A stretch of DNA of 64,000 bases from Bordetella genomosp. 1 (GTDB lineage Bacteria; Pseudomonadota; Gammaproteobacteria; Burkholderiales; Burkholderiaceae_B), in contig NZ_NEVL01000007.1 of assembly GCF_002261335.1 (NCBI RefSeq), positions 1-64,000 of the forward strand, in the 5' to 3' direction. Shown piece by piece: positions 7,183 through 19,411 of the stretch. The translations under genes were made by a program, and so were the position numbers. Below the pieces are notes generated by a model. That model was given only the letters and a program-made list of their open reading frames with translations. It was not told the DNA's origin and did not search any database. The stretch's first letter is position 1. Every line of letters starts with the position of its first letter.

Positions 7183-9486
7183 CTATTGCGTAGCCGCATT
7201 ATGCTTTTCTTGCAAGGTCGCGTCCATAGTATCGGCCGCGGGCGCCAAGCGGGTCAACAGAATGGAAACCCGCGCGCCGCCTTCCTTGCGGTTGGCAAGA
7301 TCGATACGCCCGCCGTGCTCCTCCACGATCTTGCGCACGATGGCTAATCCTAACCCAGTACCGTGAGCCTTTGTCGTGATATAGGGCTCGAAGGCGCGCT
7401 GAATCACCTGTGGCGCGAATCCCGGGCCCGTGTCGGCCACCGTGAAACGCACCGCGCAGCGCTCCGACCCATCGGCCTCGCTGCTGCGCATGACTTGCGT
7501 GCCCACCCGCACGCGGCCTTCGCGGCCCTGTTCGGCCACCGCGTCGCGGGCATTGGCCAACAGATTATGAATGACTTGGCGCAACTGCGTCGGATCGCCC
7601 TCGATACGCGGCAGATCGGGCGCGAGCTCCACGTCGAACTGGAAGGCCGCGGCGGCGCTGCCCTTGCCCTCGCCGGGCTCCCAACCATAGAGCGCCAGCA
7701 CGTCGGCGACCAGGCCGTTGAAGTCGACCGGCTGCATCACGGCCGGCGGGGTGCGCGCGTATTCGCGGAAGTCGTCGACCATCTGCTTGAGCGAGCCGAC
7801 CTGGTTGACGATGGTGTTGGTGGCGCGGGTCAGCAGCTGCGCATCGGCCGGCTCGAGCCGGTCGGCCAGCTTCATGGCGAGACGCTCGGCCGACAGCTGG
7901 ATCGGCGTGAGCGGGTTCTTGATCTCGTGGGCCAGGCGGCGCGCCACCTCGCCCCAGGCCATGGTGCGGTTGGCCGAGATCACTTCCGTGATGTCGTCGA
8001 ACACCACCAGGTAGCCGTTGCCGCGGCCGTCCACCTTGAGGTGCGTGCCGCGCGCCAGCAGCGTGATCGGGGCCACGCCGGGCTCCTGCGCCGGGGCGAT
8101 CTCGAATTGCTGTTGCCAGTGCAACCGTTCCGAACCCACCGCCGCGTGGTTGGCGAAGGCCTGGCGGATGATGTGCGCCAGTTCCAGCATGCCGTCGGCG
8201 GTTTCGAGCGGCCGGCCGATCACCGAGCGCAGGTCGGCCTGCAGGATCGCCTGCGCCCCCTGGTTGACCGTGGTGACGCGGAAGCCCTCGTCGAAGGCGA
8301 TCACGCCCGACGACAGATTGGCCAGCACGCTTTCGAGATAGACGTTGGAGCGCTCGAGCTGGCGCCGGTTGCTCTCGACCATCTGGCGCGCCTCGTCGAG
8401 CTGGCGCGTCATCGCGTTGAACGAGCGGGTCAGCTGGCCGACCTCGTCGCGCTCGGGCGGCTCGGGCAGCGGCCGGTAGTCGCCCACGCTCACCGCCTGC
8501 GTGCCGGCGGCCAGCGACAGCAGCGGCCGCACCAGCCGCTTGGCGTGCGACAGCGCCACCGCGATCGCGGCGAAGGTGGCCAGCAGCAGCGCCAGCGTCA
8601 GCGTGATGCCGTAGAGCTTGCGCAGGCCCAGGCGCGACAGCGCGAGCTCCTGGTAGTCGCGAAAGCCCTGCTGCACGCGGTTGGCGTTGTGGGCGATCTG
8701 CTCGGGCACGTTCTGCACCAGCTGCAGCCAGCGCGGCTCGACCGACATGCCCAAGGGCGAGTCGAAGCGCACCGGCGCCGACAGCGCGATCACCACGCGC
8801 AGGTGCAGCCCGCCTTCGGAGCCCGGGATCGCCGGGTCGTCGGCCTCGGCCGCCGAGTAGCCGCGCGAGAGCCGCAGCTGGTTCAGCACCTCAGGCGGCA
8901 CCGAGGGCGGCAGCAGCTGGCCGTATTTATTGGTGGAAAACGCCACCGGCCGGCCGCTGCCGGTGAACACCAGGGCCTCCTGCACGCCGTTGTTCTCGCG
9001 CAGGCGCGTGAGCGAGGCCGGGACCTCGGCGTCCGACATGTTGTTGAGCTCGACCGCCATCGCGCGGGCGCGGGCGTCGAGATCGGCGAGCTGCGAATCG
9101 AGCGCGGCGCGGCCGAGGTTCAGGCCGGATTCGAGCGCGCTGTCGACCCGCACGTTGAACCACGACTCGATCGAGCGGCCCATGAACTGCACCGACAGCG
9201 TGTAGATCAGCACGCCGGGGACCACGCCGATCAGCGCGAACGCCAGCGCGAAGCGGGCGGTCAGGCGCGCCCCGAACTGGCGCCGCCGGATCTGGCGCAC
9301 CAGCCGCACGCTCAGCGCCACCACCCAGATGAACAGGGTCAGCGCGAACACGCCGTTGAGGATCAGCAGCGCGTCGTAGTACTGCGCGAAGCGGGACGCG
9401 TTGCCGGTGGACCAGGCGAGCAACCCGAGCAGGCCGAGTCCGCTGATGGCGCCGACGATCAGCGCCAGCCGGAGCAGAAGTCTCAT
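7183..9486 (-). CDS. ntrY: NtrY-like membrane sensor histidine kinase
   Basis: A 767-residue sensor kinase. The N-terminus has three hydrophobic segments (about 6-28, 36-60 and 80-105). A periplasmic or extended sensing region, another membrane segment near 290-310, HAMP, PAS and a HisKA domain with the phospho-histidine motif RLAHEIKNPLTPIQLSAERL follow, then a HATPase domain with NLLANARDAV, DTGPGFAP and GTGLGLAIVRKIVEEHGG. Start ATG at 9486 overlaps the DUF4390 gene by 4 bp. The signal sensed is not evident; NtrYX systems are linked to nitrogen, redox and envelope control in other bacteria. Confidence 0.9.
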   Translation of the reverse strand: MRLLLRLALIVGAISGLGLLGLLAWSTGNASRFAQYYDALLILNGVFALTLFIWVVALSVRLVRQIRRRQFGARLTARFALAFALIGVVPGVLIYTLSVQFMGRSIESWFNVRVDSALESGLNLGRAALDSQLADLDARARAMAVELNNMSDAEVPASLTRLRENNGVQEALVFTGSGRPVAFSTNKYGQLLPPSVPPEVLNQLRLSRGYSAAEADDPAIPGSEGGLHLRVVIALSAPVRFDSPLGMSVEPRWLQLVQNVPEQIAHNANRVQQGFRDYQELALSRLGLRKLYGITLTLALLLATFAAIAVALSHAKRLVRPLLSLAAGTQAVSVGDYRPLPEPPERDEVGQLTRSFNAMTRQLDEARQMVESNRRQLERSNVYLESVLANLSSGVIAFDEGFRVTTVNQGAQAILQADLRSVIGRPLETADGMLELAHIIRQAFANHAAVGSERLHWQQQFEIAPAQEPGVAPITLLARGTHLKVDGRGNGYLVVFDDITEVISANRTMAWGEVARRLAHEIKNPLTPIQLSAERLAMKLADRLEPADAQLLTRATNTIVNQVGSLKQMVDDFREYARTPPAVMQPVDFNGLVADVLALYGWEPGEGKGSAAAAFQFDVELAPDLPRIEGDPTQLRQVIHNLLANARDAVAEQGREGRVRVGTQVMRSSEADGSERCAVRFTVADTGPGFAPQVIQRAFEPYITTKAHGTGLGLAIVRKIVEEHGGRIDLANRKEGGARVSILLTRLAPAADTMDATLQEKHNAATQ

Positions 9487-10055
9487 GAGGGGTCGGTCAG
9501 GGTGAAGGAGAAGGTCGTCCACGGCGTGGCGGGCGACCAGGAGCTGCTGTTGAGCGCGTTGACCTGGAACGGGCGCGGCAGCAGCGAGGTGTCCAGCCGC
9601 ACCCGGATCTGGCCTTCGTAGCGCTGGCCGGCCTCGAACTGGTCGGCGTCCGCCACCTGCCAGCCGCGGATGCGCCGCACCAGGTCCATGGCGTCGTCGA
9701 GCGAGCCCACCGGCAGGGACAGCTCGTCCTGGCCGGCGCGCCATTGGCGCGTCAGGGCGTTGTAGGTGATGCGCCAGGTCAGGCGCTGGTCGACCAGCGT
9801 GGCGTCGAACCAGTACCAGCGGGCGCGAGTGATGGTGACGTCGGCGGTGAAATAGAGCGACAGGCCGCGGCTCGCGGCGTCGCGCAGCTGTTCGTTGAGC
9901 GGGAAATCCACGTCCGCATCGATCACGAGCTTGCCGTCGCGGATCTCGGGCGTGACGTGCGTGACGCCCGGATCGGCATACGCGAGTTGTCCGCCCGCCA
10001 GACCGAACAGCAGGGCAAAACTCAGCAACAGAGCGGAAAACGAACGGAATTTCAT
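9483..10055 (-). CDS. DUF4390 exported protein
   Basis: A 190-residue protein with a signal peptide (residues about 1-27, ending AYA) followed by a beta-rich domain of the DUF4390 family, which is conserved next to ntrY in Burkholderiales. It contains FPLNEQLRDAASRGLSLYFTAD-type sequence and the tail FSFTLTDPS. The start MKFRSFS at 10055 gives the proper signal peptide. Its stop overlaps the ntrY start by 4 bp, so it may act with the periplasmic part of the sensor; that link is inference from context. Confidence 0.85.
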   Translation of the reverse strand: MKFRSFSALLLSFALLFGLAGGQLAYADPGVTHVTPEIRDGKLVIDADVDFPLNEQLRDAASRGLSLYFTADVTITRARWYWFDATLVDQRLTWRITYNALTRQWRAGQDELSLPVGSLDDAMDLVRRIRGWQVADADQFEAGQRYEGQIRVRLDTSLLPRPFQVNALNSSSWSPATPWTTFSFTLTDPS

Positions 10056-12214: not shown

Positions 12215-12592
12215 TTTAGGGACGGTTTACTGGGCGTAAAATGACGGCCCTTCCGCTGCGCTCACCCTGCGCACGGATTGCGCAGCCCGCCCAACCGCTC
12301 CCCGTGATGCCACGAAGCGCTGCGGGCCGCGCCGATTCGCGGGCCCTCGCGCCGAACCGTGAATCCGGGTGGTGAGCCAGCCGTGCCGGTCCCCAGGGCC
12401 GTGCGCCAAGGCCACCGCGAACGCGGCGCCTGAACCCGCCGCGCGCGCCGGGCCCGCCACGAAACGTTATGACCGGCACAGCGCCGGTCCTCCCATCGGA
12501 AACGACAACCGCCTTGCTGCCCCCCGCCGCGAGGCCCGCGAATGACTGCCGCTGCATGGCCTGTGCCGTGCGCGAACCTACGGTGAACGACT
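12215..12592. other. Intergenic stretch upstream of the original rimO start
   Basis: These 378 bp between the exporter gene and the stranded rimO 5' end contain no convincing gene. A hairpin accggc-acag-cgccggt lies near 12475-12492 but has no T-tract. The region presumably held the native rimO promoter, now cut off from the functional gene by the island. Confidence 0.5.
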
Positions 12593-12754
12593 TTGGAAAT
12601 CCTCGAAACCTCCCGGCCTGGCAAAGGCCCCGGCAACGCCAACGGCGCTGACGCAAACGCCTCCGCCGCCTCGACGCTGGCCGACACCATCGCCACCGCC
12701 AACGCCAGCGGCCGCATCCCGCGCGTGGGCTTCGTGTCGCTGGGCTGCCTCTAG
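12593..12754 (+). pseudogene. rimO: Stranded 5' end of rimO (left of the island)
   Basis: From a TTG at 12593 an open frame encodes 53 residues ending RIPRVGFVSLGCL before TAG at 12752. Its last residues, VGFVSLGC, match residues 10-17 of the intact rimO at 18083 (VGFISLGC), but the DNA uses different, GC-rich codons. After the cysteine codon the sequence diverges at once into island DNA and stops. This is the original rimO start region, with a longer Ala/Asn-rich N-terminal extension, left behind by the insertion. Confidence 0.85.
12725..12750 (+). other. Left island junction (attL-like)
   Basis: Host rimO sequence encoding VGFVSLGC ends here. Compared with 18110-18135, about 15 of 25 positions agree, including the run ggctg followed by c/t and c at the crossover. 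To the left the codons are host-like; to the right the DNA is AT-richer. Confidence 0.6.
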
Positions 12755-12873
12755 GCCACTGAATCTATACCTTAGATGCGCGTTGGAAATTGTGCCGGAA
12801 GTCAAATTACGCTCTAGGATGAGCGTATGAAGCACATGGCGTTTTCATCGCTGCTGATGAGGAGAGGATCTCA

Positions 12874-13647
12874 ATGTTGTGGGCAAGATATTCAGGAACG
12901 GGCATTTTTCCACATCAGCGTTGGCGCGGCGAACTCAAGTGGCATTGTGATGCCTATTGGACAGATGCATCTGCGTGCCATCCTACAGTCCTTGTCGTCA
13001 CCCTAAAAACACTCTACGGCGGCGCATACGTGCGAGATGCACAATTGGTCTTTACTGAAGGCCTCGCAGGCTCGCGCCCACAATTCACGATGGATCGCTT
13101 CAAGCGCGGCGGTGGATTTAACCAGCAAAGCGCGAATGTGAGCGTAGCACTGCGGTATGAAGGTTCTCGGAGCACTCAAGTCGTCTTGAGTGGTCACTTC
13201 TACGAGCGAGGGGTTGGTGGGCAAATTTCAAGAGCATTCACATTAGAAGGGGATCTCGTTGAAAAAGGGGATGGCGACCTCCCTATGGAAAAAGCAGCCA
13301 ACGCCAAAACCGCGTGCAATGTCCGTCACCTTGCTGTATCGCTAGAGCCACTGCTGAAAATATTGACCGATGAAACTCCTCTGCCGATAAATGAGGCCGA
13401 GAGATTTCAAAAGCTATTGGTCGAATATCAGAATGGATCCTGCAGTACGACGCAATGCCAGCCGGGAAGCTGTGCTCTGCGTGAGCAATTCGACTGGCTT
13501 GCTTACCACGGATACAAGGACATCCGAGATGCGCTGGACTTCGATAAGAGCGGACTACATTCCGATCCTCCGAAGCTGCTAAAACGTCCTGGGGTCGAAA
13601 CCTTAAAGCTCACTTTCTTAAAGCAACCTGGCCACTACAACCCTTGA
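12874..13647 (+). CDS. Unrecognised island protein
   Basis: A 257-residue soluble protein I do not recognise. The first half (about 1-130) alternates short hydrophobic and polar stretches as in a beta-rich fold. The second half looks helical and carries a Cys cluster at 190, 195 and 200 (C-x4-C-x4-C), with further Cys at 25, 35 and 148. There is no signal peptide or membrane segment. The ATG at 12874 follows an aggagagga ribosome-binding site. It is the first gene of the island, 100 bp ahead of the HEPN-like gene. Base composition is like the rest of the island and unlike the host. A defence-related role is suggested only by its neighbours. Confidence 0.7.
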   Translation: MLWARYSGTGIFPHQRWRGELKWHCDAYWTDASACHPTVLVVTLKTLYGGAYVRDAQLVFTEGLAGSRPQFTMDRFKRGGGFNQQSANVSVALRYEGSRSTQVVLSGHFYERGVGGQISRAFTLEGDLVEKGDGDLPMEKAANAKTACNVRHLAVSLEPLLKILTDETPLPINEAERFQKLLVEYQNGSCSTTQCQPGSCALREQFDWLAYHGYKDIRDALDFDKSGLHSDPPKLLKRPGVETLKLTFLKQPGHYNP

Positions 13648-13747
13648 GCGAAATCGCTGGTGCCATCAAGCGGAACTCGTGTGTAGATAGATAGAGACGC
13701 TAAACTTGCCTCTTGCTACCACAGAGATATGAGGGGGCGAGATCGGC

Positions 13748-14137
13748 ATGGCTTATGCGATCGATATGGAGAAGGCTGCATATCGTCATTACGAAGACGG
13801 GTATGCGATGTTACAAAATCGGCGGCCGGACAATGCAGGCTATCACTTTGGCCTGTCAACCGAGTGCGTAATCAAGCATGTGCTATTGGACAACTATAGG
13901 ATCAAAAAAAGCGACGCCCCATGGATGGCTCACTTCCCGGACCTCCGCCATGCGGCCGAACTGTTTCTATCCAATCGCGCGCAAGCTGCGCGTCTCCGCA
14001 CCATCATTGAAGACCAAAACCTTATGCAAGGATGGCATGTGAAGATGAGATATGCGCGGAATTCAAGCGTTTCTCCAGCTCAAGCGAAGAAGTGGCAGGA
14101 GCAAGCAAAGAACACCCTTGGCCTCTTGATCGCCTAG
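13748..14137 (+). CDS. HEPN-like small protein
   Basis: A 129-residue all-helical protein. The pattern YRHYEDGYAMLQ, then AGYHFGLSTECVIKHVLL, then HFPDLRHAAELFL, and GWHVKMRYAR near the end follows the helices of HEPN/MNS-type proteins, where the middle helix carries the conserved (A/S)-x-E-x-x-x-K. The RNase motif R-x4-6-H of active HEPN toxins is not seen after MRYAR (RNSSVSP follows), so it may be a non-catalytic or divergent HEPN. A gagggggc sequence precedes the ATG. It lies 10 bp ahead of the variant ATPase gene, whose Shine-Dalgarno overlaps this gene's stop. Confidence 0.7.
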   Translation: MAYAIDMEKAAYRHYEDGYAMLQNRRPDNAGYHFGLSTECVIKHVLLDNYRIKKSDAPWMAHFPDLRHAAELFLSNRAQAARLRTIIEDQNLMQGWHVKMRYARNSSVSPAQAKKWQEQAKNTLGLLIA

Positions 14138-14147
14138 GAACAACAAA

Positions 14148-15638
14148 TTGCAGAACATTACATTCGACGATAGTGTATCCACCTTTGTGGGAGTGGTGGC
14201 TCAAACTTTGGGAATGAACACTGCTTTAAGCGGTCTGCTCCTTCGGGATGCTGCCGGAAGGTTGACATTGGTGACCGAGAAGCCAATTACGGCAACGCTC
14301 GCCAACAAGCTGTCGAAAAATTTAGTAGCGGTCATGGCACCTTATGTGAGGCCTGGAAGGGTTGTTATCAGCAAAGAAACTCCGGGAGTTGAATCGATTC
14401 TCGCAGGAGCGTTCTATGGCTGGGCGATGGCCAGATTCGAGCACAACGGGGAACCCACCATCGCGATGGTGCACATTGTCGATCGGAGAATCGTCGGGCG
14501 AGACTGGCAGACACAGCCTGTACGAGGATGGGAGCCTCCAGGCCCGGCACGGGTGGTCTTTGCGAGTCTCAAGGGCGGGGTCGGCAGGTCTACGGCACTC
14601 GCTGTACTTGCTTCAGATCTAGCATATGACGGTAAAAATGTTCTCGTTGTTGACCTCGACCTAGAAGCGCCAGGGATTGGAACAATGCTCGTCAGTTCTA
14701 ATACACGACCTCGGTATGGTGTGCTGGATTGGATGGTGGAATCTAATCTTCAAGACGTCGGGCCTGAATTTCTCGCTCAGATGATCGCACCTAGCGATTT
14801 CAGTGGTGGACGCGGCGTAATCGATGTGGTGCCCGCGGTGGGATCTTCTTCTGACGAGAATCCCCAAAACGTCTTGTCGAAGCTGGCACGTGCATACCTG
14901 GAAGATGCGCGTGACGGTGTAGAGGCGACGTTTTTGACCAAAGTCGGCAAGCTACTTGAAGCCCTGTCCGAGCGGCGCACCTATGACGCCATACTTATCG
15001 ACGCGCGGGCAGGTCTTCACGAGACAACCGCTGCCTCAGTCCTAGGATTGGGCGCTGATGTCCTCTTTTTTGGTATGAACTCGACACAGACCTTCGAAAG
15101 CTATCGGTTTCTGCTCTCCCAAATTAAAGAGGCTCTGGACGATCAGGACGCGATTAGGTCGACCCAGGCATACTTGGCGCATGAGCGAGACGATGAAGAG
15201 GAGCAGCCGAAAGAACTTCCTCTTCTCTCGCAAGAGTTCATTGGGCGCATTAAGTTCATTCATGCAAAGTCACCGAAGGAGGACGTCGAACAGACTCGCT
15301 TTCGCGACAGGCTTCACAGAATGTTGGTTGAAATGGGCTTCTACAGAACCGACTCGATCGAACTTGTGCACGATGAGCCGGAGGAAGGCAGTGACGCTAA
15401 GTTCGTCTTCCATCCTGCGATCGGCGTGGACGACGAAACAGCCCCGCATTATGCTTGGCCAATTTTTGGTAGCTCTCTTTACTCTGTCTTCGATCCCTTT
15501 GCTGCTGACGATGCTGACGTAAAAGGTCAGCCAGCTGTGGATCTGAAGCAGCTTGAGCCAACAAACTACGAAGAAGCGTTTGGCGAGTTTTTGAAAAATG
15601 TTCGCGAACGCATCCGTTTGCCGAGGTCCCAGACTTGA
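14148..15638 (+). CDS. ParA/MinD-type ATPase with KGGVGR P-loop variant
   Basis: A 496-residue protein. Residues 1-130 form an N-terminal domain of unknown function. A SIMIBI-class ATPase follows: deviant Walker A SLKGGVGRS (140-148), switch I VVDLDLEAPGIG (D169, D171) and Walker B AILIDARAG (D285). The signature lysine K142 is kept, but the P-loop lysine before Ser/Thr is Arg147 instead of Lys. From memory, this fits a family named KGGVGR-motif variant ATPase. The C-terminal 170 residues are acidic and unlike partition ATPases. The TTG start at 14148 has aggaa seven bases upstream; an ATG at 14214 is the alternative. The stop overlaps the next gene by 4 bp. No ParB or parS is present, so plasmid partition is unlikely. 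Confidence 0.85.
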   Translation: MQNITFDDSVSTFVGVVAQTLGMNTALSGLLLRDAAGRLTLVTEKPITATLANKLSKNLVAVMAPYVRPGRVVISKETPGVESILAGAFYGWAMARFEHNGEPTIAMVHIVDRRIVGRDWQTQPVRGWEPPGPARVVFASLKGGVGRSTALAVLASDLAYDGKNVLVVDLDLEAPGIGTMLVSSNTRPRYGVLDWMVESNLQDVGPEFLAQMIAPSDFSGGRGVIDVVPAVGSSSDENPQNVLSKLARAYLEDARDGVEATFLTKVGKLLEALSERRTYDAILIDARAGLHETTAASVLGLGADVLFFGMNSTQTFESYRFLLSQIKEALDDQDAIRSTQAYLAHERDDEEEQPKELPLLSQEFIGRIKFIHAKSPKEDVEQTRFRDRLHRMLVEMGFYRTDSIELVHDEPEEGSDAKFVFHPAIGVDDETAPHYAWPIFGSSLYSVFDPFAADDADVKGQPAVDLKQLEPTNYEEAFGEFLKNVRERIRLPRSQT

Positions 15639-17107
15639 CCCAGTTTGACATCATCCGAAGTGTGTTCCGGGATCTCGACCCCGCTGCCTCACACGAAGTC
15701 ACAACGCCTCCTGATATAGCTGAGGTGTACACGCCTTCAGACCACGAGTCTGCGCTTGATGCCGACCGCGCGTTGGTGGTGGGCGACAGAGGGATGGGGA
15801 AGACATTCTGGGTGTCAGCCCTAGCCGACTCTAGTGCGCGGAGCTATCTGAATCAGGTTTACTCTCGACTCAAGCTGGACCTTTGCGATGTACGCATCGG
15901 TTTCGCTGGGGTTGACATGGCCGCAGACGGAGCGATTTCTCAGGAGGTCTTTGACGAACAAGAAACTCGGAAGGGCTATCGGCCAGAACTGATTTGGCGC
16001 GCGGTAATTTTCCGCGCAGCCGAAACGGCGATCGCGAACTCCAAACCGATGCACGGGACATTTACCGAGCTGCTTCAATGGGCTGATGCTGACGCGGAAC
16101 GCTTCCAAAGCGCGCTGCGCGAACTTGATCGAATTATCCTGGCCAGTGGCAGAAAAGTAGTCATCCTGTTCGATGCGCTTGATCGCTTAGGCAGTTCCTG
16201 GGCTGAAATTCGCCGTCGCACCTTAGCTCTGATGCGAGTCACCCTTGCCTTCCGCGCTTATTCGGCCATTCGCCTGAAGATTTTCATGCGCACAGACCAG
16301 GCATTGGACCCGGCAATATTCTCCTTCCCGGACGCCTCGAAGCTCACTCAGGGCCGCGTCAATTTGTCATGGGAGAGGCGGGACTTATATGGACTGGCAT
16401 TTTCTCGCTTGGTCCTCGCTGATCCAGCCAGACAGGCATTTAGCGACATCTGCAGAGAATCTGTTGGGTTTTCGTTGGATAACGGCGCGAATCTTCCCAA
16501 CATGCTTAAGCACGATGAACCTGTACAGCAAGAAGTCTTCTCGGCGATGGCAGGGCAATACATGGGAAGCGATTGGCGCAAAGGAAAAACCTATGCTTGG
16601 CTGCACAATCATTTAGCTGACGCACACGGCCGGGTCAGCCCAAGGAGCTTTTTGGTTGCACTCGGTGCCGCGGCTCGAAATCGCCCAGAGCCCACCAAGG
16701 TGTTCGACCCAAGAGGTCTACAGATTGGAGTCCAAGCAGCCTCAGAGGCTCGCGTGAATCAGCTTGCCGAAGAGTTCCCTTGGATTAAGGCGGCGCTTGA
16801 GCCGTTAGCAGATCTTCGGGTGCCCGCGACGAGGGAGAGCTTCATCGAGCGATGGGATCGTGACGACACTGTAAAGTCACTTGTAGCGGCCTCGACTCGC
16901 GTTGGGCATTTGGTGCCTGTGGAATTTGGAGACACGCCTACTGACGCCACCTCGGATCAGTTGCTGCAGGCGTTGCAACGTATCGGGGTCGCCGAAACGC
17001 GGCCAGATGGTCGGATCAACATGCCAGACATCTTCCGTGTTGCCTCAAAGCTGCTGAAAAAGGGTGGCATCCCGGTCTCTTCTCGGAAAGGCTCAAGCGT
17101 GAAGTAG
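15635..17107 (+). CDS. P-loop ATPase partner of the KGGVGR ATPase
   Basis: A 490-residue protein with Walker A GDRGMGKTF at 50-58, Walker B VVILFDALDRL at 175-185 and a sensor-like strand LKIFMRTD at 214-221, as in AAA+/STAND-like NTPases. The C-terminal 150 residues look helical with a possible winged-helix fold (LLQALQRIGVAETRPDGRINMPDIFRVASKLLK). No transmembrane or nuclease motif is evident. The TTG start at 15635 overlaps the previous stop (TTGA) and has gaggt seven bases upstream. It is tightly coupled to the variant ATPase, so the two probably act as one complex; which one senses infection is unknown. Confidence 0.8.
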   Translation: MTQFDIIRSVFRDLDPAASHEVTTPPDIAEVYTPSDHESALDADRALVVGDRGMGKTFWVSALADSSARSYLNQVYSRLKLDLCDVRIGFAGVDMAADGAISQEVFDEQETRKGYRPELIWRAVIFRAAETAIANSKPMHGTFTELLQWADADAERFQSALRELDRIILASGRKVVILFDALDRLGSSWAEIRRRTLALMRVTLAFRAYSAIRLKIFMRTDQALDPAIFSFPDASKLTQGRVNLSWERRDLYGLAFSRLVLADPARQAFSDICRESVGFSLDNGANLPNMLKHDEPVQQEVFSAMAGQYMGSDWRKGKTYAWLHNHLADAHGRVSPRSFLVALGAAARNRPEPTKVFDPRGLQIGVQAASEARVNQLAEEFPWIKAALEPLADLRVPATRESFIERWDRDDTVKSLVAASTRVGHLVPVEFGDTPTDATSDQLLQALQRIGVAETRPDGRINMPDIFRVASKLLKKGGIPVSSRKGSSVK

Positions 17108-17166
17108 AGTGATCGGCTTGAGCCCCGCCTGATTGCACTTCGGCTACATACTGGATTCGTGAGTTC

Positions 17167-17991
17167 ATGGTGACTAATCGAACCGCCCCATTGTCAGACA
17201 CCATCATCGTGGCGTTATCGCAAGTCGTGGACGACGCCCAATCGGAACGTCGCGATCCGAGCCATTCCGACCTCGAGAGCTTGATTCGGCGACACGGGCT
17301 AGTTCAAGGAGATCCCAACAGTAATGGCCAAGTGGTCGGAAAAGCGAAGAGAGTTCGGGCTGTTCTGAATTGGGCCATTGAACATGCTTCGGAAGCGGGT
17401 GGCGCCTTTGTCATCTCATTCGTTTCCCTTGTCCGGGGCCATGGTGGTTTCCGGGACGGCTCGCCCAATTACGTCGGAAGACATGCAATCGATAACTGCA
17501 TTTCCGCCTTCGACTCCGAGGGATTCGTCCTAGGAACCGATGGGGACCTACGCCCCAAGGTACTAGACGCTCTATCCGGCTCAGTGCTTACCGCGGCGTT
17601 GAGAGCTTATGTTCAGCGTGCCAAGAGGGGCGTGGAGGATGCTGCTCTGGAAATCGGCACGGGGAAGGATCTTGTGGAAGCGATAGCTGCCCACGTTGTG
17701 CAACAGAAATTCGGTGCCTATCCGGGTCATGCGAACTTTCCCACGCTTCTAGGGCAGGCATTCGTTGCGCTAGGCTTAGCGACGCCCCATGACACAGCAC
17801 AGCCCGGAGAACCTCCTCAGCGGAGGATTGAGCGCGCGATGTATGAACTCGCCTGTGGCGTTAATCTACTGCGCAACAAGCAAGGGACTGGTCACGGACG
17901 TCCGTGGGTGCCTACAGTGTCTAACGCCGATGCTCGTGCCGCCATCGAAGCTATGGGGCTCGTCGGCGAATTCCTTTTGGCGCGCCTTTAG
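17167..17991 (+). CDS. Abortive-infection (Abi_C-like) family protein
   Basis: A 274-residue protein. The C-terminal region LACGVNLLRNKQGTGHGRP followed by an alanine-rich helix (AIEAMGLVGEFLLARL) closely follows the Abi_C pattern (RN-x-GTGHG, then FLL). The N-terminal 170 residues are mostly helical. Abi_C proteins are associated with phage abortive infection, usually with no catalytic site known. The ATG at 17167 lies 59 bp after the P-loop ATPase gene and has only a weak ribosome-binding site. It could be the effector of the cassette or a separate defence gene carried with it. Confidence 0.75.
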   Translation: MVTNRTAPLSDTIIVALSQVVDDAQSERRDPSHSDLESLIRRHGLVQGDPNSNGQVVGKAKRVRAVLNWAIEHASEAGGAFVISFVSLVRGHGGFRDGSPNYVGRHAIDNCISAFDSEGFVLGTDGDLRPKVLDALSGSVLTAALRAYVQRAKRGVEDAALEIGTGKDLVEAIAAHVVQQKFGAYPGHANFPTLLGQAFVALGLATPHDTAQPGEPPQRRIERAMYELACGVNLLRNKQGTGHGRPWVPTVSNADARAAIEAMGLVGEFLLARL

Positions 17992-18050
17992 GCGGACAAG
18001 GCAGTCTATGTGTGGCGTTGGGTAATGTTACGAACCGGCTCAGCCCCGCG

Positions 18051-18082
18051 TTGAACTCTCACTAAACTTTTTATTTATTTCA
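18051..18082 (+). promoter_or_regulatory. rimO: Possible island-borne promoter for hybrid rimO
   Basis: A ttgaac at 18051-18056 is followed after about 15-17 bp by AT-rich hexamers (tattta at 18072, tttatt at 18074). The start codon follows within about ten bases and has no Shine-Dalgarno, so the transcript would be nearly leaderless. This is a weak call from sequence pattern only. Confidence 0.35.
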
Positions 18083-19411
18083 ATGACATACGAAGCTCAA
18101 CCACCGAAAGTGGGATTTATCAGTCTTGGCTGTCCGAAGGCGCTCGTGGACTCCGAGCGCATCCTCACGCAGCTGCGCACCGAAGGCTACCAGGTCACGC
18201 CCGAGTACAACGACGCCGACGTGGTGGTGGTCAACACCTGTGGCTTCATCGACAGCGCCAAGGCCGAATCGCTGGAAGCGATCGGCGAGGCGCTGGCCGA
18301 AAACGGCAAGGTCATCGTGACCGGCTGCATGGGCGTGGAAGAGTCGGTGATCCGCGAGGTGCACCCGAGCGTGCTGGCCGTGACCGGCCCGCAGCAATAC
18401 GAGGCCGTCGTGCGCGCCGTGCACGAAGCCGCCCCGCCGCGCGCCGACCACAACCCCTATCTCGACCTGGTGCCGCCGCAAGGCGTGAAGCTCACGCCGC
18501 GCCACTACGCCTACCTGAAGATTTCGGAAGGCTGCAATCACCGCTGCAGCTTCTGCATCATCCCGTCGATGCGCGGCGACCTGGTCAGCCGGCCGGTGGG
18601 CGACGTGCTGAGCGAGGCCGAGCGCCTGGTCAAGGCCGGCGTGAAGGAGCTGCTGGTGATCTCGCAGGACACCAGCGCCTACGGCGTGGACGTGAAGTTC
18701 CGCAGCGGCTTCTGGAACGGCCGTCCGGTGCGCACCCGCATGACCGAGCTGTGCGAGGCGCTGTCGGAGCTGGGCGTCTGGATCCGCCTGCACTACGTGT
18801 ACCCGTATCCGCACGTCGACGAGATCATCGCGCTGATGGCCAACAAGAAGGTGCTGCCGTACCTGGACATCCCGTTCCAGCACGCCAGCCCGGCCGTGCT
18901 GCGCGCGATGAAGCGCCCGGCCTTCGAGGACAAGACCCTGGCGCGCATCAAGAAGTGGCGCGAACAGTGTCCCGAGCTCACGCTGCGCTCGACCTTCATC
19001 GTGGGCTTCCCCGGCGAGACCGAGGAAGACTTCCAATACCTGCTCGACTGGATGACCGAGGCGCAGCTCGACCGCGTGGGCTGTTTCCAGTATTCGCCGG
19101 TCGAGGGCGCGCCGGCGAACACGCTCGCCAATCCGGTGCCCGACGACGTCAAGCAGGATCGCTGGGAGCGCTTCATGGCGCATCAACAGGCGATCTCGAC
19201 CGCGCGCCTGGCGCGCCGCGTCGGCCAGGAGATCGACGTGCTGATCGACGAGGTCGAGGAGGACGGCGCCATCGGCCGCTCCAGCGCCGATGCGCCCGAG
19301 ATCGATGGCTGCGTCTACGTCACCACCGACCAGGCCGTGAAGCCGGGCGACATGGTGCGCGTGCGCGTGACCGACTCCGACGAATACGATCTGTACGCCG
19401 AGCAGATCTGA
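18083..19411 (+). CDS. rimO: Ribosomal protein S12 methylthiotransferase RimO (hybrid N-terminus)
   Basis: A 442-residue radical-SAM enzyme that adds a methylthio group to the conserved aspartate of ribosomal protein S12. The UPF0004 domain has cluster cysteines C17, C53 and C82; the radical SAM motif C151-x3-C155-x2-C158 sits in [13 protein letters not shown]; a TRAM domain closes the protein. Codons for residues 1-17 ([17 protein letters not shown]) are AT-rich, and from Pro18 on they are host-like. The first 17 residues therefore come from the island, replacing a longer host N-terminus. All catalytic residues are retained, so the enzyme is probably functional. A strong terminator follows. 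Confidence 0.95.
18110..18135 (+). other. Right island junction (attR-like)
   Basis: The sequence encoding VGFISLGC is written in island-type codons (gga ttt atc agt ctt) and changes to host codons (ccg aag gcg ctc) right after tgt at 18131-18133. It pairs with the copy at 12725-12750 on the left. Confidence 0.6.

Follow-up and report, generated by a model that had tools for sequence, protein, structure and literature searches.

Four genes lying in one direction between positions 13748 and 17991 raise the question of which of them belong together and what they do. They are found in a stretch of 64,000 nucleotides of Bordetella genomosp. 1 DNA (contig NZ_NEVL01000007.1, positions 1 to 64,000), which at its full length is referred to here as the window. 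A sequence-only reading made earlier took the four genes, which encode a HEPN-like protein, a KGGVGR ATPase, a P-loop ATPase, and an Abi_C protein, for a candidate defence system without a name, with the preceding gene of 257 codons as a possible fifth member. The analysis described here showed that the first three genes, designated A, B, and C, make up a single operon, conserved and closely packed, which is cargo of a low-GC island. As judged by profile matches, this trio is a candidate already catalogued in PADLOC as PDC-M28, with a predicted function, and it is probably an anti-phage module. We give a probability of about 0.6 to the complete reading, i.e., a three-gene anti-phage candidate carried by an island and acting through the complex and switch mechanism proposed below.

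A conserved three-gene operon

The three genes are on the forward strand and leave little space between them. Gene A (13748..14137) encodes a HEPN-like protein of 129 amino acids. Gene B (14148..15638) encodes a ParA/MinD-like (SIMIBI) ATPase of 496 amino acids with a KGGVGR loop and an N-terminal alpha/beta domain, and gene C (15635..17107) encodes a Cdc6/ORC-STAND-like P-loop ATPase of 490 amino acids. The gap between A and B is 10 bp, B and C overlap by 4 bp, and the start codon of both B and C is TTG. The coordinates, common direction, and tight packing described from the letters of the sequence were all confirmed. The components of PDC-M28 were matched nearly over their full length by the three adjacent genes: A matched PDC-M28A (PDLC04558, E 2.3e-25, residues 5-126), B matched PDC-M28B (PDLC04559, E 5.4e-89, residues 4-490), and C matched PDC-M28C (PDLC04561, E 1.4e-132, residues 4-480). 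The sequence-only reading had recognized no named system with this combination, a view that these matches do not support. The source of the PDC entries is reportedly a 2024 preprint by Payne et al., and the name PDC-M28 was not found in the literature searched. Comparison with NCBIfam placed B above the cut-off of the KGGVGR ATPase family NF047398 (179.9 bits, cut-off 90) and C above that of the Sll1717-family P-loop ATPase NF047389 (81.7 bits, cut-off 75). Together with the conservation of the operon, these matches uphold the two-ATPase core that the sequence-only reading had recognized.

Relatives were collected using C as bait. They were found on 21 plasmid records, at 10 IMG/VR loci, at 80 named genome loci (the best 80 of 206 confirmed stretches), and in 15 of 399 genomes of the order, five of these 15 through weak or short matches only. 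A draw from the phylum gave a C match at E <= 0.001 in 27 of 398 genomes, eight of them by weak or partial matches only, and no match to C was found in phage records. The phyla represented among the C-baited loci include Pseudomonadota, Acidobacteriota, Myxococcota, Spirochaetota, Gemmatimonadota, Synergistota, and others. The list of loci contains some places twice, e.g., L052/L103, L003/L137, and L018/L117, and the gene starts are over-extended in several relatives. Profile matches in the order A-B-C on one strand were present at 83 of the 94 occurrences of C whose upstream DNA extended over 2.6 kb or more; for 25 further C matches the upstream DNA was too short to judge. B and C without A were recorded in four of the 94, and two of these four (L064 and L068) do show an A that was missed by the distance rule, beside a broken or over-extended B. 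The distance matrices of the three proteins agree (Mantel 0.86, 0.89, and 0.80 over 89 loci; best of 500 shuffles, 0.07). These results indicated that A-B-C is, beyond chance, maintained as an operon in several phyla.

The proteins and their fusions

The window's A itself matched no HEPN model in Pfam. Its HEPN label is based on the PADLOC match to PDC-M28A and on its relatives, of which five of 54 matched PF05168 (HEPN) at E <= 0.01 (best 0.0015) and, in another set, four of 14 did so at E <= 0.1 (best 4.9e-5). No solved structure close to A was found by sequence. Alignment of the 54 relatives showed invariant G35, E39, K43, H62, W96, R101, and Y102. The canonical HEPN RNase motif, Rx4-6H, is not conserved, and after any RY it is seen in at most six of the 54. 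For this reason A was rejected as an ordinary HEPN RNase; it is a member of a HEPN-like family that lacks the canonical RNase motif. The HEPN toxin that the sequence-only reading implied is doubtful because the motif is not conserved.

The same residues bear on the possibility that the trio is a toxin-antitoxin system, in which the ParA-like B would restrain A, a HEPN RNase toxin, and C would be an extra regulator, comparable to the MAE_18760 dyad proposed in 2013. The pairing of a HEPN protein with a ParA/Soj-like ATPase is described in the available part of PMC3710099, and a small gene does come first in a closely packed operon. The state of the RNase motif argues against a toxin of this kind, as does the composition of the module, which is a triad rather than a dyad. 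In addition, the Pfam matches of A relatives include PF05168 HEPN and AbiV and none named MAE_18760, although the presence of such a model in Pfam was not checked. We regard the toxin-antitoxin explanation as unlikely.

B is a ParA/MinD-like protein whose P-loop carries arginine where lysine is usual. The KGGVGR sequence is invariant, with the arginine in 62 of 62 aligned rows. The predicted structure is confident (predicted local distance difference test score, pLDDT, 89.7). Its ATPase core resembles Soj/ParA, MinD, and Wzc in fold (best E 6e-7), and by sequence the solved structures match B in this core only. The N-terminal domain (approximately residues 1-130) belongs to no consistent Pfam family, with 11 families each matched by one of 32 relatives at E <= 1, and profile searches of the PDB gave for it only apolipoprotein A-IV and a long toxin protein. 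In ParA of plasmid P1, engineered replacement of the P-loop lysine by arginine reportedly impairs the ParA cycle, which is a lead for B rather than a test of it.

The confident model of C (pLDDT 93.5) predicts a Cdc6/ORC-like fold. Among its matches were Cdc6/ORC2 and, from a BrxC-BrxB-PglZ complex, two chains (E 3e-5 to 2e-4). No solved structure close to C was found by sequence, and the window's C falls below the Pfam NACHT cut-off (22.2 vs 26.7 bits). A ParA/Soj fold in B next to an ORC/Cdc6 fold in C would also suit a partition or maintenance module, with B and a DNA-binding C stabilising plasmids and prophages, and the loci on plasmid records and viral contigs are in keeping with such a role. 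Nonetheless, the P-loop lysine is replaced throughout the B family, the window copy is chromosomal, and trios inside BREX operons or with the C fusions described next do not fit. Partition is, therefore, quite improbable as the main function.

B and C are a single polypeptide with A upstream on the Nostoc plasmid of locus L047 (890 amino acids) and at L205 (915 amino acids). A divergent B-C fusion of 956 amino acids, at L209, is preceded by an open reading frame (ORF) with a weak HEPN-like match (E 0.011). At five loci (L200-L204) from four genomes of one genus, C is extended into a calcineurin-like metallophosphoesterase and a NACHT ATPase. These proteins have 1328-1790 amino acids, their C parts are 49-66% identical, and A and B are found upstream at four of the five loci; C was present in seven of the eight genomes drawn from this genus. 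A simple pattern search of the phosphoesterase region recovered the D-x-H, GNHD, and middle H motifs in all five proteins, GHxH in four, and GD in three.

Other arrangements were observed at two loci. Pseudomonas lopnurensis has two trios in convergent orientation (L084:8314-16188). A Spirochaetia locus (L129) has ahead of C only one short ORF, at 9468-9980, in which the beginning of A runs into the last part of B, resembling a decayed trio.

Defence context and a proposed mechanism

A link to a known defence system was obtained with queries taken from the BREX-2 (bacteriophage exclusion) proteins of annotated plasmids. BREX-2 (Pgl) genes adjoin C at six of 118 loci: L019, L034 (Thiodictyon), L035 (Sphaerotilus), L041 (Streptomyces), L128 (Zoogloea), and L136 (Rubrivivax). 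A and B accompany C at five of them; the short stretch of L019 has B and C, and A was not seen. The trio occupies either the pglX-pglY or the pglW-pglX interval. At L035 and L128 the start of A overlaps the stop of pglX by 4 nucleotides (ATGA). At L136 an in-frame start lies equally far from pglX, and at L034 a gap of 631 bp intervenes. On a FastTree tree of 112 C proteins the BREX label needs at least four changes. As a separate observation, two of these loci have further cargo ORFs between C and pglY (L128:11409-13390 and L136:11389-13745). Inspection by eye suggests an ABC-type ATPase and its partner as well as a Fic-like ORF with a zinc/helix-turn-helix-like ORF, and BREX-2 may thus have a slot for cargo between pglX and pglY.

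This arrangement could mean that the trio is mainly a BREX part, an accessory regulator or backup that watches the integrity of PglX or of BREX, with stand-alone copies doing likewise for other systems. The position within the pgl genes, the 4-nucleotide overlap with pglX at two loci, and the BrxC-BrxB-PglZ chains among the fold matches of C would all be expected of such a part. On the other hand, 112 of the 118 C loci showed no clear BREX-2 gene (one had a 28-bit PglX match, and many are short), and the trio is complete without BREX in the window's island. No PglX, PglY, or PglZ was found there, and the five island proteins matched only PDC-M28 in PADLOC; the rest of the genome was not searched for BREX. 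A dedicated BREX-2 accessory is consequently somewhat unlikely.

The trio was also found in viral contigs. Among 50 neighbours at eight viral loci, the phage portal, large terminase, and primase families were each matched by one protein, and DNA methyltransferases by two (among the first 25 of 120 families listed). The occurrence of the trio on plasmids and viral contigs, and within gene clusters known to act against phages, makes an anti-phage role probable. The candidate-defence reading proposed from the sequence alone thus holds for a conserved A-B-C operon in these settings. In a PADLOC scan of the genes around the trio, 84 models were matched by 125 neighbours (of 393 eligible) and five by 125 control genes.

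Several observations weigh against this reading. The models in the PADLOC scan are redundant, none was matched by more than two neighbours, and the controls came from one order; the Pfam families of the neighbours (25 of 146 listed) include many ordinary genes. For these reasons the enrichment is weak and only suggestive. The BREX-2 association concerns only six of 118 loci, and five of the six C proteins involved fall in one clade of 11, with the Streptomyces one apart. C was found alone at seven of the 94 assessable occurrences, five of them on Streptomyces plasmids (L039, L040, L043, L044, and L045, without A and B by these profiles), and the C-phosphoesterase-NACHT gene of L204 has no A or B in approximately 4 kb of upstream DNA. 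The Foldseek template modeling scores of C are low (0.27-0.35 by query length, top 13). Finally, because Rx4-6H is not conserved in A, A is at most a putative effector.

The anti-phage reading nonetheless permits a specific model. Fold, fusions, and context suggest that the A, B, and C proteins form one complex. C would read an infection cue, perhaps DNA that is entering the cell or being replicated, or a BREX machine whose state has been disturbed. B would act as a dimer switch held by nucleotide, with slow hydrolysis because of the arginine in its P-loop. A would dock on B-C and serve there as the output arm or as an adaptor, either by binding nucleotide or RNA or by means of a non-canonical active site. 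Activation would then halt the production of phage, with abortive infection as the most likely route. In one genus, parts for output and sensing may have been built into C as the metallophosphoesterase-NACHT extension. Tentatively, the trio could represent a new mechanistic class of immune switch, in which an ORC/STAND ATPase and a SIMIBI ATPase without P-loop lysine gate a catalytically unconventional HEPN arm. The output would be replaceable or extendable by a metallophosphoesterase-NACHT module, and inside BREX-2 the guard would be translated together with PglX.

The trio is widespread and portable, and yet by sequence A and C have no close solved structure and B has one in its core only. 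The fusions and the pglX overlap yield concrete predictions, open to test, on the contacts between the parts and on the site at which the module connects. A catalogue entry becomes in this way a mechanistic question, namely the role in immunity of a ParA-like switch without the P-loop lysine.

The rimO island, its passengers, and known systems

The trio is cargo of a low-GC island that split rimO. The island, inserted at 12748..18124, has approximate borders near a shared GGCTG, and was delimited by flank comparison and alignment. The G+C content of 12754-18127 is 53.9%, compared with 68.1% for the whole window and 71.2% and 69.2% for the 5-kb flanks. Before the island, on the forward strand, 12568..12747 is a remnant of the ancestral rimO 5′ region (87% identity over 180 bp to congener L158), the match covering the region before and into rimO. 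It encodes GRIPRVGFVSLGCL, followed by a stop, and the old start region breaks off within the SLGC motif. Behind the island, rimO (18083..19411, forward strand) has a new 5′ end that adjoins it and is 85-93% identical, as whole matches, to rimO of 13 congeners; native-like rimO DNA restarts at about 18125 in comparison with L158, behind the new 5′ end. The remnant on one side and native-like DNA following a new 5′ end on the other (12568-12747 and 18083-18140) indicated that rimO was the target of the element, which supplied the gene with a new start.

Insertion into this gene has precedents. A 160-kb island and partial conjugative elements are in rimO of Acidithiobacillus ferrooxidans (available part of PMC10322971), and rimO of Polaromonas naphthalenivorans is a mobile-element target (available part of PMC4482086). 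These two reports rule out rimO as an undescribed insertion site. No tyrosine recombinase was found within the island in a search of the genome itself, which returned nine places, the nearest on the contig at 94616; other recombinase types were not searched. The island has no sigma-70-like promoter (0 found; mean 3.2 in shuffles), and no match in E. coli DNA was found. Of 14 other genomes of the genus, only G011 has a trio, a distant one; it lies on a different contig from rimO and is apparently the same locus as L137 of Bordetella genomosp. 13. The remaining matches within the genus are short stretches around the ATPase loop.

Two further genes share the island and the strand of the trio. The gene for the 257-amino-acid protein (12874..13647) stops 100 bp ahead of A and has no family match in four libraries; its product contains a cysteine-rich stretch, CSTTQCQPGSC. 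The Abi_C gene (17167..17991), encoding 274 amino acids, starts 59 bp after C and matches PF14355 in Pfam (E 9.7e-15) and nothing in PADLOC; the family is named for abortive infection. The common strand and the short distances are compatible with all four or five island genes forming one system, as the sequence-only reading had supposed. However, outside the window neither protein had a homologue in the DNA available at the other 118 C loci (by profile for Abi_C) or in 12 further stretches. The DNA available reaches 3 kb or more past the end of C at 87 of the 118 loci, and 5 kb or more to each side at 43. Good Abi_C homologues were found in four other Burkholderiales genomes among the 399 of the order (53-56% identity), without A, B, or C in neighbourhoods of about 10 kb; Abi_C homologues were also present in ten plasmid records. 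For the 257-amino-acid protein, the 398 other genomes of the order gave a single match, of 21.7 bits, and plasmids gave none. A four- or five-gene system is accordingly very improbable. Both genes are separate island passengers, and the gene-neighbourhood conservation that had been suggested as a check was seen for A-B-C and not for Abi_C.

With respect to known systems, the trio shares with NACHT/STAND immune proteins the C-metallophosphoesterase-NACHT fusions of one genus; the window's C has no such extension and lies under the NACHT cut-off. Like the HEPN and ParA/Soj dyad around MAE_18760, a toxin-antitoxin prediction by Anantharaman in 2013, it places a HEPN protein beside a SIMIBI ATPase (available part of PMC3710099). 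It differs in its near-constant third ATPase and in a HEPN RNase motif that is not conserved. The same source notes HEPN genes in Pgl operons, and the available part of PMC12839542 lists stand-alone HEPN effectors in BREX loci. With BREX-2/Pgl the trio has in common the six loci where C lies beside BREX-2 genes and the ORC/Cdc6 class, which is reported for BrxD and BrxC (PMC12839542, same part) and which C shares, whereas the window's island has no BREX gene. The available parts of PMC12839542, PMC7159879, and PMC13092281 neither name nor describe the trio. The closest relationship is with PDC-M28 itself, one of the PADLOC candidates that stem from guilt-by-embedding, most of them without validation (available part of PMC12988326). 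In a comparison made through the PADLOC models alone, all three components are matched in the same neighbourhood, and to these the window adds an Abi_C neighbour and an island in rimO.

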